The notes beneath the pieces were generated by a model, which ran no database searches, had not been told where the DNA came from, and saw nothing but the letters and a program-made list of their open reading frames with translations. Positions 22,586 to 46,565 of a stretch of DNA of 64,000 nt are shown here, in pieces. How positions within the stretch are numbered: position 1 is the first letter of the stretch; the number at the start of each line of letters is the position of its first letter. This DNA comes from Tunturibacter gelidoferens (GTDB taxonomy: Bacteria > Acidobacteriota > Terriglobia > Terriglobales > Acidobacteriaceae), in NCBI RefSeq assembly GCF_040358255.1, contig NZ_CP132938.1, positions 3,038,001-3,102,000 of the forward strand, given 5' to 3'. The translations under genes were made by a program, and so were the position numbers.

Positions 22586-22663
22586 TGGAGGGTTTGGGTT
22601 GGAAGGTTCGAATGGTATGGGTGGGTGGAATGTGTTGGGATCCTTCACTTCGTTCAGGATGAC
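22586..22663. repeat. 78-bp direct repeat, unit 1
   Basis: Identical to 22758-22835 at 74 of 78 positions. It ends with GATCCTTCACTTCGTTCAGG then ATGAC, the REP-like core found elsewhere in the window. Read on the minus strand this gives the peptide ILNEVKDP, a well-known artefact of this repeat type; it is not a gene. Confidence 0.85.
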
Positions 22664-22757
22664 AGCCAAGGGGCGTGCAACGGCAATGGCTAGTACGGCG
22701 GTTTTTCGGCTGCGTTGTTCACGGTGAGGCTGTTAGTGGGTGGAGGAGCGGGAACGG

Positions 22758-22835
22758 TGGAGTGTTTGGATTGGAAGGTTCGAATGGTATGGGTGGGTGA
22801 AATGTGTCGGGATCCTTCACTTCGTTCAGGATGAC
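22758..22835. repeat. 78-bp direct repeat, unit 2
   Basis: Second unit, starting 172 bp after the first. The minus-strand frame through it reads HPERSEGS, the other classic artefact peptide of this repeat class. Confidence 0.85.
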
Positions 22836-22849
22836 GACCAAGAGCGGGT

Positions 22850-26060: not shown

Positions 26061-26160
26061 GTCCTGCCGGACGGGCCTCCTGCGCGGAGGGCGGTCACTT
26101 CGTGACTTGTGTACCGGTCTTGGCGGGTTAGGTGCTTGGTCCTCCCGTTGGTCGGAGGGG
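26061..26160 (+). repeat. ~100-bp interspersed repeat family, copy 1
   Basis: Runs from GTCCTGCCGGACGGGCC through GGTCACTTCGTGAC, a small hairpin, and TTGTGTACC to GGTCCTCCCGTTGGTCGGAG. It fills the gap between the convergent GH3 and ftsY genes. Other copies: 29351-29450 and 45649-45750, plus an inverted part at 45760-45842. Confidence 0.85.
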
Positions 26161-26166
26161 AGCGCT

Positions 26167-29350: not shown

Positions 29351-29450
29351 GTCCTGCCGGACGGGCCCACTGCGCGTGGCGCGGTCACTTCGTGACTTGT
29401 GTACCTTGTCTCGGCGGGGCTGATATCTTTGGTCCTCCCGTTGGTCGGAA
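29351..29450 (+). repeat. ~100-bp interspersed repeat family, copy 2
   Basis: Same sequence order as copy 1 (26061-26160): GTCCTGCCGGACGGGCCCAC, GGTCACTTCGTGACTTGTG, GGTCCTCCCGTTGGTCGG. It fills the gap between the small membrane protein gene and gpsA. Confidence 0.85.
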
Positions 29451-29480
29451 GAAGAGATAAGGCTTACCCATCTGTAGAGG

Positions 29481-44235: not shown

Positions 44236-44334
44236 GTGCCGGGTCCTACGCGACGTAATCCCGCCAACCCCGCCAGGTCCGGAAGGAAGCAACGGTAACG
44301 GGTCATTACGGGCGCAGTAGGTCGCCCGGTGCAC
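44236..44334 (+). ncRNA. ffs: Small signal recognition particle RNA (4.5S type)
   Basis: About 99 nt. The apical loop CAGGTCCGGAAGGAAGCA (44274-44291) is the near-invariant Ffh-binding motif. The 5' and 3' ends (GTGCCGGGTCCTACG and GTCGCCCGGTGCAC) pair into a long hairpin with bulges typical of the short bacterial form. Boundaries are set by the end of pairing, so +/- 5 nt. Its protein receptor ftsY is in the window. Confidence 0.95.
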
Positions 44335-44375
44335 AATCTTTCCCTGCTTCTACTTTCGCCGCAGCCTCTCGCAAT

Positions 44376-44399
44376 GGCGCAGTAGGTCGCCCGATGCAC
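44376..44399 (+). repeat. Duplicated 3' end of the SRP RNA
   Basis: GGCGCAGTAGGTCGCCCGAT then GCAC repeats 44311-44334, the ffs 3' strand, at 23 of 24 positions, exactly 65 bp downstream. The rest of the ffs sequence is not repeated, so it is a partial duplication. Confidence 0.85.
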
Positions 44400-44614
44400 T
44401 ATCCCTCCTCCTTCTTTTCCCGCTCAGGACATTTGTGAGATTCGCCAATCCCGAAGGGCGAGGTGTGTCTTTTTTGGGTCGCTGCTCGTCAATGAACTCG
44501 TCAGGGGAACGTGACACGCGTACGCTTCTCAGAGAGAATGGTCCGACGGTGAACGACGGTTCATTTGAAAACGGGTTTATCTTTTATTGCTTTGACACTA
44601 GATGAGGTGAGAGT

Positions 44615-45631
44615 TTGAGTTTGACGTTGAGACCGCAGACGCGGGTACGCGCGAAGATCAGTTCAGTAGGGGCGTATGTTCCGCCGCGTTTGTTGACCAA
44701 TGCGGATCTGGAAAAGATGGTCGCAACCAACGACCAATGGATTACCGAGCGGACGGGAATTCGTGAGCGTCATATTGTGGAGGCGGGTGTCGCGACCAGC
44801 GATCTGGCGGTGGAGGCGGCGAAGAAGTGTCTTGCGGCTCGCGGCATCGAGGCCAGTGAGCTGGAGGTGATCATCGTCGCGACGGTGACGCCCGATATGT
44901 TCTTTCCGGCGACGGCGTGCCTGGTGCAGGACAAGCTCGGTGTAAAGGGAGCATGGGGGTTCGATCTTTCGGCAGCCTGCTCGGGATTTCCCTATGCGTT
45001 GCAGGTGGGGGCGAAGCTGGTCGAGAGCGGGATGCACAAGAAGGTGATGGTGATCGGAGCGGATGTGATGAGCTCGATCATCGACTACACCGACCGGGCG
45101 ACCTGCGTAATCTTCGGCGATGGCGCTGGCGCGGTGCTGCTCGAGCCATGCGAAGACGGAGAGATCGGGCTGGTCGACTACTGGCACGAGATCGATGGCT
45201 CTGGTGCGGCAGCGCTGAATATGCCGGGTGGGGGAAGTTTGAATCCGCCGACTGCGGAGACGGTCGCAGCGAAGATGCATTATGTCCATCAGGATGGGCA
45301 GGCGGTGTACAAGTTTGCGGTGCGCAAGATGGCGGAGGCCGCGGAGATCATCCTGACGCGCAACGGCGTGGAAGGGAAGGACCTTGGCTGCTTTATTCCG
45401 CATCAGGCGAATAAGCGGATCATTCTTTCGACGGCGGAGCGACTGGGCATGCCGGAGGAGTCGGTGATCATCAACATCGACCGGTACGGCAACACCACGG
45501 CGGCTACGATCCCCATGGCGATGCAGACGGCGCTTGAAGAGAAGAGGTTGAAGAAGGGCGATCTCGTTCTGCTGGCTAGTGTTGGAGCTGGCTTTACCGT
45601 GGGAGCCACTTTGTTGCGGTGGGAGTTTTAA
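44615..45631 (+). CDS. fabH: Beta-ketoacyl-ACP synthase III
   Basis: Starts fatty-acid synthesis by condensing acetyl-CoA (or another primer) with malonyl-ACP. 338 residues. The Cys-His-Asn triad is Cys122 in [12 protein letters not shown], His in [11 protein letters not shown] and Asn in [14 protein letters not shown] start at 44615 with GAGGTGA 5 nt upstream. No other fab gene is adjacent; the nested inverted repeat follows 10 bp after the stop. A chain-length or branched-primer preference cannot be read from sequence. Confidence 0.95.
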
Positions 45632-45641
45632 GAGGCTGTCC

Positions 45642-45849
45642 AGAAACTGTCCTGCCGGACGGGCCCACTGCGCGGAGCGCGGTCACTTCGTGACGTGTGT
45701 ACTTTGTCTTGGCGAGGCTAGCTGCTTCGGTCCTCCCGTTGGTCGGAGGAGAAGTTGATTCCGACCAACGGGAGGACCGGGCGAAGCTTTAAAAAGGCGT
45801 GTGAACGCCCGCTCCACGCGCAGTGGGCCCGTCCGGCAGGACAGTTTCT
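45642..45849. repeat. 208-bp nested inverted repeat (head-to-head repeat copies)
   Basis: Outer arms 45642-45674 and 45817-45849 are perfect 33-bp inverted copies. Inner arms 45729-45747 and 45760-45778 are perfect 19-bp copies around a 12-nt loop. The left half is copy 3 of the ~100-bp interspersed family; the right half is a shorter copy in reverse. It lies between fabH and padR. As RNA it would form one long hairpin. Confidence 0.92.
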
Positions 45850-45962
45850 AAAGCACGGGATCTAAAAGATTTTTGAGCGGGTGAGGGCGGAGATGCTTCA
45901 CCCGTTTTCATTTAACCTCTGATTTTTGTCCGTCCCAGGTTTCAGGGATTTTTTCTTGCTTA

Positions 45963-45981
45963 ATATATCTTTTAGATATAT
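45963..45981. promoter_or_regulatory. Probable PadR operator
   Basis: ATATATCT-TTT-AGATATAT, a perfect inverted repeat ending 12 bp before the padR ATG, in an AT-rich promoter. PadR-family proteins bind ATGT/ATAT-type dyads, so autoregulation is likely. Confidence 0.65.
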
Positions 45982-45992
45982 ATCTTGGAGCT

Positions 45993-46565
45993 ATGAAGAT
46001 CGAAGGCGGTTCGACTCCCAATGCTTTGCTTGGACTTCTGAGCCTGAGGCCGATGTCCGGATACGACATTCGCCAGATGGTCGCTCAATCCATCGGGCAC
46101 TTCTGGAGCGAGAGTTATGGACAGATCTATCCAGGGTTGAAGCGCCTTGCGGCAGCGGGTTTGATCGAGAAGAAGACCGAGCGCAACAAGGGAAAGCCTG
46201 ACCGAAACCTGTATTCGCTTACGGCAGAGGGACGAGAACGGCTGCAGGAGTGGCTGAAGATTCCGGTCTCCGAGGAGGTGGCCAGGAACGAATTGTTGTT
46301 GAAGCTCTTCTTCGGCGCGCATGTCTCGACGAGCGTCAATCGGGAGCATGTGATCTCGAACATGGAGTTTCATCAGCGGGCGCTGAAGGTGTACACGGCG
46401 ACGGCGAAGCAACTGCGGCAGGACGAGGCGAATGATCCTAATCTGCCGTACTGGTTGATGACGTTGAACTACGGACGACATTACAGCGTAGCGATGTCGA
46501 AGTGGTGCAGGGAGACGCTGGCGGAGTTGGATGAGATAGAGAGCAAGGAAAAAAGGAGGCGGTGA
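45993..46565 (+). CDS. PadR-family transcriptional regulator
   Basis: 190 residues. The N-terminal winged helix (NALLGLLSLRPMSGYDIRQM, SYGQIYPGLKRLAAAGLIEK) is followed by a coiled-coil dimerisation domain (about 95-185), the two-domain Vir/AphA-type PadR layout. TTGGAG precedes the ATG. It overlaps the next gene by one base (TGATG), so the likely target, apart from itself, is the downstream membrane protein. The dyad at 45963 is a good operator candidate. Confidence 0.92.
   Translation: MKIEGGSTPNALLGLLSLRPMSGYDIRQMVAQSIGHFWSESYGQIYPGLKRLAAAGLIEKKTERNKGKPDRNLYSLTAEGRERLQEWLKIPVSEEVARNELLLKLFFGAHVSTSVNREHVISNMEFHQRALKVYTATAKQLRQDEANDPNLPYWLMTLNYGRHYSVAMSKWCRETLAELDEIESKEKRRR

Follow-up and report, generated by a model that had tools for sequence, protein, structure and literature searches.

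The palindrome immediately behind fabH is best explained as a full-length dimer of a largely genus-restricted, REP-like repeat family whose copies act as two-way 3′-end hairpin modules, a reading to which we give slightly better than even confidence and in which the function is what we infer. The family is dispersed through the genome, its local hairpins are conserved, its copies stand beside stop codons, and at fabH the element is an insertion; it has the look of an element scattered over many gene ends and not of a singular structure. The Acidobacteriota thereby gain a lineage-specific, multi-hairpin REP-like family for which the usual REP transposase was not found and in which the placement behind stop codons is the same, so that the reasons for which REP-like repeats settle at gene ends can be tested where no RAYT partner is evident. 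Throughout, “the window” is the whole 64-kb stretch analysed (C2:3038001–3102000) of the genome under study (G000, 5.58 Mb), and positions given without a contig or locus name are those of the window.

Architecture of the element behind fabH

The initial annotation had described two nested, perfect arm pairs around a single centre. The 33-bp perfect outer pair is real and forms the first part of outer arms (45642–45682 and 45809–45849) that are 93% complementary over 41 nt; the inner arms measure 20 nt rather than 19, and the centres of the two pairs, calculated from the coordinates as 45745.5 (outer) and 45753.5 (inner), lie 8 bp apart rather than coinciding. The left half does belong to an interspersed family, as had been proposed, with relatives in the window at about 26061–26162 (89% over the aligned part) and 29351–29452 (87%), and the arrangement as two family copies set head to head likewise holds. 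The right half, taken at first for a shorter copy, is instead a variant of about the same length as the left half, and its third hairpin differs. The element is the sole local inverted repeat of at least 30 nt in the window (exact seed of 14), the two other inverted pairs from the scan joining distant copies of its own family.

Four local stem-loops in a row, H1, H2, H3, and the central H5, make up the repeat unit of about 102 nt, and in a dimer two such units face each other across the central stem (Table 1). The fold predicted for the single fabH copy, in contrast, is one long hairpin and not the local ones (45632–45859, −158.4 kcal/mol, z −14.7; none of 200 shuffles as good). Just outside H1 of the window copy lies CTGTCCAGAAACTGTCC, and CTGTCCAGAAACT-like motifs are likewise found in the flanks of a copy in G014, a genome of the same species (L115, ~1484–1723); from these flanking motifs, an outer repeat may exist beyond H1.

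Table 1. Positions of the element, its parts, its neighbours, and two further family copies in the window.
Feature	Position	Strand	Basis or remark
fabH, 3-oxoacyl-ACP synthase III	44615..45631	+	10 nt separate its stop codon from the element
Whole element, two repeat units head to head	45642..45849	.	Arm search, genome search; insertion against empty sites
Left half unit, type A	45649..45751	+	95.2 bits against the 102-position covariance model R1 (G000:C2:3083649-3083751)
Right arm, type B	45769..45842	-	Third hairpin GGCGT-TCAC-ACGCC, then TTTTT on the - strand
Outer perfect 33-nt arm, left	45642..45674	+	Inverted-repeat search
Outer perfect 33-nt arm, right	45817..45849	-	Inverted-repeat search
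Central stem	45728..45779	.	20-nt arms 45728-45747 and 45760-45779, 100% complementary
Local hairpin H1, GTCC-TGCC-GGAC	45649..45660	+	Sequence and family structure
Local hairpin H2	45663..45680	+	Left-arm stem here a mismatched hybrid, CCAC opposite GGAG
Local hairpin H3, GTCAC-TTC-GTGAC	45682..45694	+	Sequence and family structure
Type B hairpin, then five T on the - strand	45791..45809	-	Intrinsic-terminator-like by eye; absent from the promoter/terminator scan
Terminator-like hairpin with T run, fabH's own	45875..45907	+	z −2.8, 4 of 200 shuffles as good; loop too long for the terminator scan rule
padR-family regulator gene	45993..46565	+	Gene call
Single (half) family copy between convergent genes	~26061..26162	+	Similarity search; 5 nt from one stop codon
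Single (half) family copy	29351..~29453	+	Similarity search and covariance model

A dispersed family of single and paired units

A search of G000 with the whole element gave at least 108 matches (from the best 40 of 183 candidates), and its 17-base end motif is found 214 times when two mismatches are allowed, against 9 times for the backward control. The covariance model of the half unit gave at least 150 matches, each of at least 64.9 bits (the best 150 of 2095 first-look candidates). Over the 861,600 bases of G000 examined, 157 arm hits fall into 104 clusters, made up of 52 single halves, 50 opposed pairs, and 2 compound clusters, numbers that are approximate, several “singles” being in truth dimers whose second arm has degenerated (e.g., 1806225 and 3993604). 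The opposed pairs span 163–246 nt, with the exception of one 55-bp mini palindrome, and the 49 dimers typed comprise 26 A–A, 20 A–B (the fabH copy among them), and 3 unclear. The mini form (G000:C2:5261775–5261829) is built of H1–H2 against H2′–H1′ alone, while a single unit at L269:2510–2621 carries an extra nested hairpin in the H2 region, as if hairpin insertions were tolerated.

By its FabH relatives, the best of them from Edaphobacter lichenicola M8UP30 (99%), G000 belongs in or near Edaphobacter. A search of related genomes, of the kind proposed at the outset, gave a match to the repeat in 37 of 60 genomes of the genus (G000 included), with very uneven numbers per genome, counted as minima. 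Under stricter filters, the covariance model matched 4 of 150 genomes across the taxonomic family (G000 included), in 2 of 79 genera, and gave no match in the genus member G012. The only matching genome outside the genus, G158 from another genus of the same family (L304, L308), has seven weak model matches (best 48.7 bits), possibly distant relatives or the result of transfer. Arm hits were also seen, among 80 named loci, in Granulicella sp. S190 (L034; three) and a Terriglobus MAG (L069; two), so that, going by organism name, the range may exceed Edaphobacter.

Within G000, the best near-full-length match of a copy has a median identity of 87.3% and a maximum of 93.7% (92 of 101 copies have such a partner); none of the copies examined is near-identical to another, and thus no recent burst is seen. 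A collapsed palindrome or other assembly artefact, raised as a danger by the initial annotation, is unlikely because dozens of similar dimers exist elsewhere in the genome and an orthologous copy occupies the same site in a related genome, G025. Rfam returned no match at gathering score for the element, the hits being to microRNAs only (25.7 of 197 and 25.5 of 80 bits); both are far below threshold and taken as chance, and identity with a known Rfam RNA was dropped. No published description of the repeat was found by title or abstract, in a search with most subscription journals outside its reach.

Conserved local hairpins and matched stem changes

Alignment A1 holds 39 of 51 single units, 99–105 nt long; 51 of 52 singles start with GTCCT, the unit start at GTCC having been set by our own selection. 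RNAalifold gives the same four hairpins as those drawn by hand, differing only in outer and inner H5 pairs, and the hand-drawn structure was itself derived from the sequences used to test it. Changes on both sides of a stem occur at 9 of the 21 drawn pairs and amount to 58 cells in the 39 units, compared with 15.4 for shuffled data (none of 500 shuffles as high), a covariation signal that is lost in the slid-partner control; further pair types are not raised (13, against 13.8 in shuffles; 456 of 500 as high). Pair 19–27, for example, is A–T in 16 units, C–G in 15, and G–C in 8, with zero mismatches. H5 is only 68.8% paired, two of its six drawn pairs being unpaired in 37 and 35 of the 39 units, respectively.

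Across all 21 drawn pairs there are one G–T cell and two C–A cells, and the extra RNAalifold pair 86–102 contains 11 U–G cells. For the four pairs of H2, 495 of 508 cells are Watson–Crick (1 G–T, 5 C–A, and 7 other) in the 127 of 150 G000 arms that fit the pattern, as are 153 of 156 in the 39 fitting arms out of 53 from other loci, a set in which the G025 dimer L114 is counted twice, being present in the G025 stretch as well. RNAs usually show more G–U pairing. Because G–T cells are nearly absent from the drawn pairs, either both strands must fold or the constraint acts on the DNA.

The same distinction arises at orthologous sites. At site B, G000 and G025 have a common linker and an H2 stem altered on both sides (CCAC/GTGG to CGCC/GGCG); at site E, where the linker is less similar, CCAC/GTGG stands against CTCC/GGAG. 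Matched stem changes of this kind, at orthologous sites of close relatives, offer a clean case for RNA selection versus DNA-level correction. On the second view, stems would be rewritten as matched pairs on DNA by hairpin-templated correction or inter-copy conversion, with both sides swapped at once and the hairpins kept perfect without G–U or A–C intermediates. The element would then be a self-correcting, direction-neutral 3′-end module replacing ordinary terminators between convergent genes, a combination that we consider unlikely.

The initial annotation had also taken the identity of the arms as a sign that the repeat formed recently or is actively maintained. As a general rule this is not supported: over 49 dimers (the 55-bp mini palindrome and the two compound clusters excluded), the arms of a dimer share 25.39 of their first 35 positions and arms of different elements 25.59, with 1295 of 2000 permutations as high. 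Since two arms within an element resemble each other no more closely than arms taken from different elements do, the long hairpin is not a conserved feature; the arms change independently, each as its own hairpin chain, and the long palindrome seems to be incidental. We therefore regard it as highly improbable that one long perfect hairpin is the functional form, as an RNase III target or a cruciform kept by arm-to-arm correction. Half units make up 52 of the 104 clusters, and at least 33 perfect nt from GTCC are found in only 3 of the 49 dimers (at least 25 in 5), even though the −158 kcal/mol fold of the fabH copy would suit such a form and its perfect 33-bp arms run out partway through the left H2 and disrupt it, which is what a recent tract of correction would do. 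For this one copy, that break, beside the unlike ends of the orthologous G025 copy, is fair reason to think that the perfect 33 bp may be copy-specific, the result of recent arm-to-arm correction.

Placement next to gene ends

Both neighbours were called for 103 of the 104 clusters, of which 51 are convergent, 43 co-directional, and 9 divergent, against 15.8%, 51.1%, and 33.0% of control spacer bases (convergent excess, binomial p about 2e-15 against the control share), figures that carry the bias of a home-made hexamer gene caller and of copies picked by similarity search and exact end motif rather than at random. A single cluster of the 104 lies inside a called gene. Stretches of 400 kb from G014 and from G025 contain 8 and 15 copies, none of them divergent, several of these sites being orthologous to G000 sites and so not fully independent.

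A dimer facing the 3′ end of a gene lies a median of 8.5 nt from the stop codon and one facing a start 52.5 nt away, and a stop is found within 20 nt in 36 of 52 dimers and compounds; singles were assigned a fixed 101-nt span, which makes some of their distances negative. In convergent spacers with a dimer, the leftover sequence has a median of 19 nt, compared with 128 nt for control spacers (26 dimers; Mann–Whitney p 0.003), and 17 of the 26 have no more than 40 nt to spare, in which a further terminator would hardly fit. Behind stops that an element adjoins, T-tailed hairpins show no significant deficit (4/107 vs. 28/387, p 0.27), and a depletion of T-tailed terminators beside elements was rejected on those counts. 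Post hoc, the same 4/107 differs from 9/39 where the element is further off (p 0.001), a contrast that has a trivial reading, namely room for a terminator.

Avoidance of harm alone does not obviously predict so short a distance to the stop codon, set against the 128 nt of control convergent spacers. This bears on a possible, if doubtful, alternative in which the family is a purely selfish dispersed repeat that spreads by some route and survives where it is harmless, behind stops, its hairpins serving its own copying and not the host. Copy numbers running from undetected to many within one genus would agree with a selfish repeat, as would presence and absence at orthologous sites inside one species and stems that are nearly all Watson–Crick with little RNA-type wobble; REPs of other bacteria, in the available part of PMC3733652, have the same placement. 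The lack of near-identical copies or a recent burst, and of any mobility gene seen near the copies, tells against it.

Mobility and relation to known repeats

The element shares with MITEs its terminal inverted repeats, short length, non-coding nature, and insertion with empty sites. To the eye, genes between neighbouring copies appear ordinary and partly housekeeping, and none resembles a transposase. Alignment at ten orthologous sites gave no convincing target-site duplication, the occupied and empty flanks differing too much and the spacers often having been replaced wholesale.

Movement by a Y1 transposase of the RAYT/IS200 type, as proposed for GTAG REPs and TIRYT-associated repeats, would make the family a non-autonomous element. 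G000 does have one Y1_Tnp gene, and TIR-flanked tyrosine transposases are reported in Acidobacteria in the available part of PMC3733652, as are class 3 Y1 proteins with atypical flanking structures in that of PMC6006769. However, the copy-rich genomes G014, G002, G028, and G029 have no Y1_Tnp match at E 0.001, and Y1_Tnp shows no association with repeat count over 60 genomes (Fisher p 0.73; Spearman −0.04, with repeat counts as minima). No arm was found at E ≤ 1 beside any of 30 Y1 loci from a longer match list, in flanks of up to 1.5 kb, and no inverted repeat of at least 14 nt surrounds the G000 gene. A RAYT/Y1 partner is thus unsupported by the arm-free loci, the missing genome association, and the missing repeat, and we rate this route, already weakened by these results, as improbable.

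The closest likeness is to the REPs. In the available part of Di Nocera et al. 2013 (PMC3733652), GTAG and CGTC REPs form many intergenic palindromic copies, as singles and head-to-head dimers, which in two species are mostly found no more than 20 bp from the 3′ ends of both convergent genes. CGTC families are without a dedicated transposase, and none was found for the present family. The family described here similarly stands beside stop codons, mostly in convergent and co-directional spacers. It differs in its unit of about 102 nt with four hairpins, where a REP, in that account, is one 20–40 bp palindrome. The flanks examined have no consistent GTAG or CGTC at either border of the units (with the start at GTCC set by us) and, unlike in GTAG REPs, no linked RAYT gene flanked by the family repeat was found among the 30 Y1 loci. 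BIMEs are mosaics of REPs in alternating orientation. The family resembles them, as far as the available accounts go, as a composite of inverted units at 3′ ends and departs from them in having one unit type with two third-hairpin variants (A and B) and a central stem. With TIRYT-associated TIRs, in the available part of PMC3733652, it shares the phylum and the dispersed inverted repeats; no family arm stands beside any of the 30 Y1 loci examined.

Intrinsic terminators are also similar in having a strong hairpin just behind the stop and, in type B halves, by eye, a T run on one strand (the − strand here). They differ in that type A halves are without a T run and the family is repeated with recognisable sequence.

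The fabH locus and a possible role at 3′ ends

At fabH the element is an insertion between the stop codon and the gene's native terminator-like hairpin. It is present in 2 of the 30 genus fabH loci fetched (G000 and G025, from 58 genomes matched) and, by eye, in none of 13 named fabH loci. The empty site that the initial annotation suggested looking for at the fabH–padR junction exists in same-species G014. The native hairpin with its T run stands 25 nt beyond the element and is also recognisable in relatives without it, so the element, judged from sequence, is probably not the sole terminator of fabH. A related GGGTGA…TCACCC-type hairpin follows the stop, by eye, in at least 7 of 28 empty loci, two of them with imperfect stems. 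G025 has the same insertion and is missing the native hairpin, which G000 retains behind the element. After the fabH element itself, the copy in G025 scores best against it in the 60 genomes (89%), which makes a single shared insertion likely; G014 and G032 would then have kept the empty site or returned to it. Of six G000 sites in 404 kb, G014 also has a copy at A, B, D, and F and has none at fabH and E; presence or absence at orthologous sites differs within one species.

A promoter/terminator scan of 45400–46100 gave two terminator-like sites on the + strand, 45589–45608 and 45932–45949 (0.8 expected in shuffles). Both are outside the element and outside the native hairpin, and neither the type A nor the type B half is listed.

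In the module reading, which we favour, the local hairpins would fold one after another as they are transcribed right behind the stop codon, and the chain would set the mRNA 3′ end by stopping or slowing the polymerase and by blocking 3′ exonucleases. Near-perfect Watson–Crick stems could work from either side, which would suit convergent genes; where these are separated by little beyond the element, both 3′ ends would form in the element or in the opposite gene. A polymerase entering from the type B side would meet a hairpin and then T on its strand. Because type A halves have no T run, several mechanisms are possible for them, namely U-tract-free termination, Rho-linked pausing, or exonuclease blocking. 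At fabH, the element would be an added 3′-end module ahead of the native hairpin. Another route would be an effect of the hairpins on ribosomes near the stop, as for E. coli REPs, for which the available part of PMC12306157 describes ribosome effects from hairpins within 15 nt of the stop. The termination or 3′-end protection envisaged in the initial annotation fits the position just behind stop codons, with function read from that position.

Several points weigh against a 3′-end module. Type A halves are without a T tract and so are not canonical intrinsic terminators; the native fabH hairpin is still present in G000; T-tailed hairpins show no significant deficit beside elements; further pair types are not raised, and two drawn H5 pairs are mostly unpaired; the fabH copy by itself is predicted to fold into the long hairpin; the scarcity of G–T could equally mean a DNA constraint; and REPs in general, in the available part of PMC3733652, sit behind stop codons, so placement alone is no proof of function.

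The surroundings of fabH hold further repeats. A small SRP RNA gene lies just upstream (44237–44334, Rfam), and a 33-nt stretch overlapping its 3′ end (44311–44343) is repeated at 88% identity 65 nt on (44376–44408), as if partly duplicated. Elsewhere in the window, two 85-nt direct repeats of 93% identity (22586–22670 and 22758–22842) contain the motif CCTTCACTTCGTTCAGGATGAC, which resembles sequence in the fabH–padR spacer of L036.
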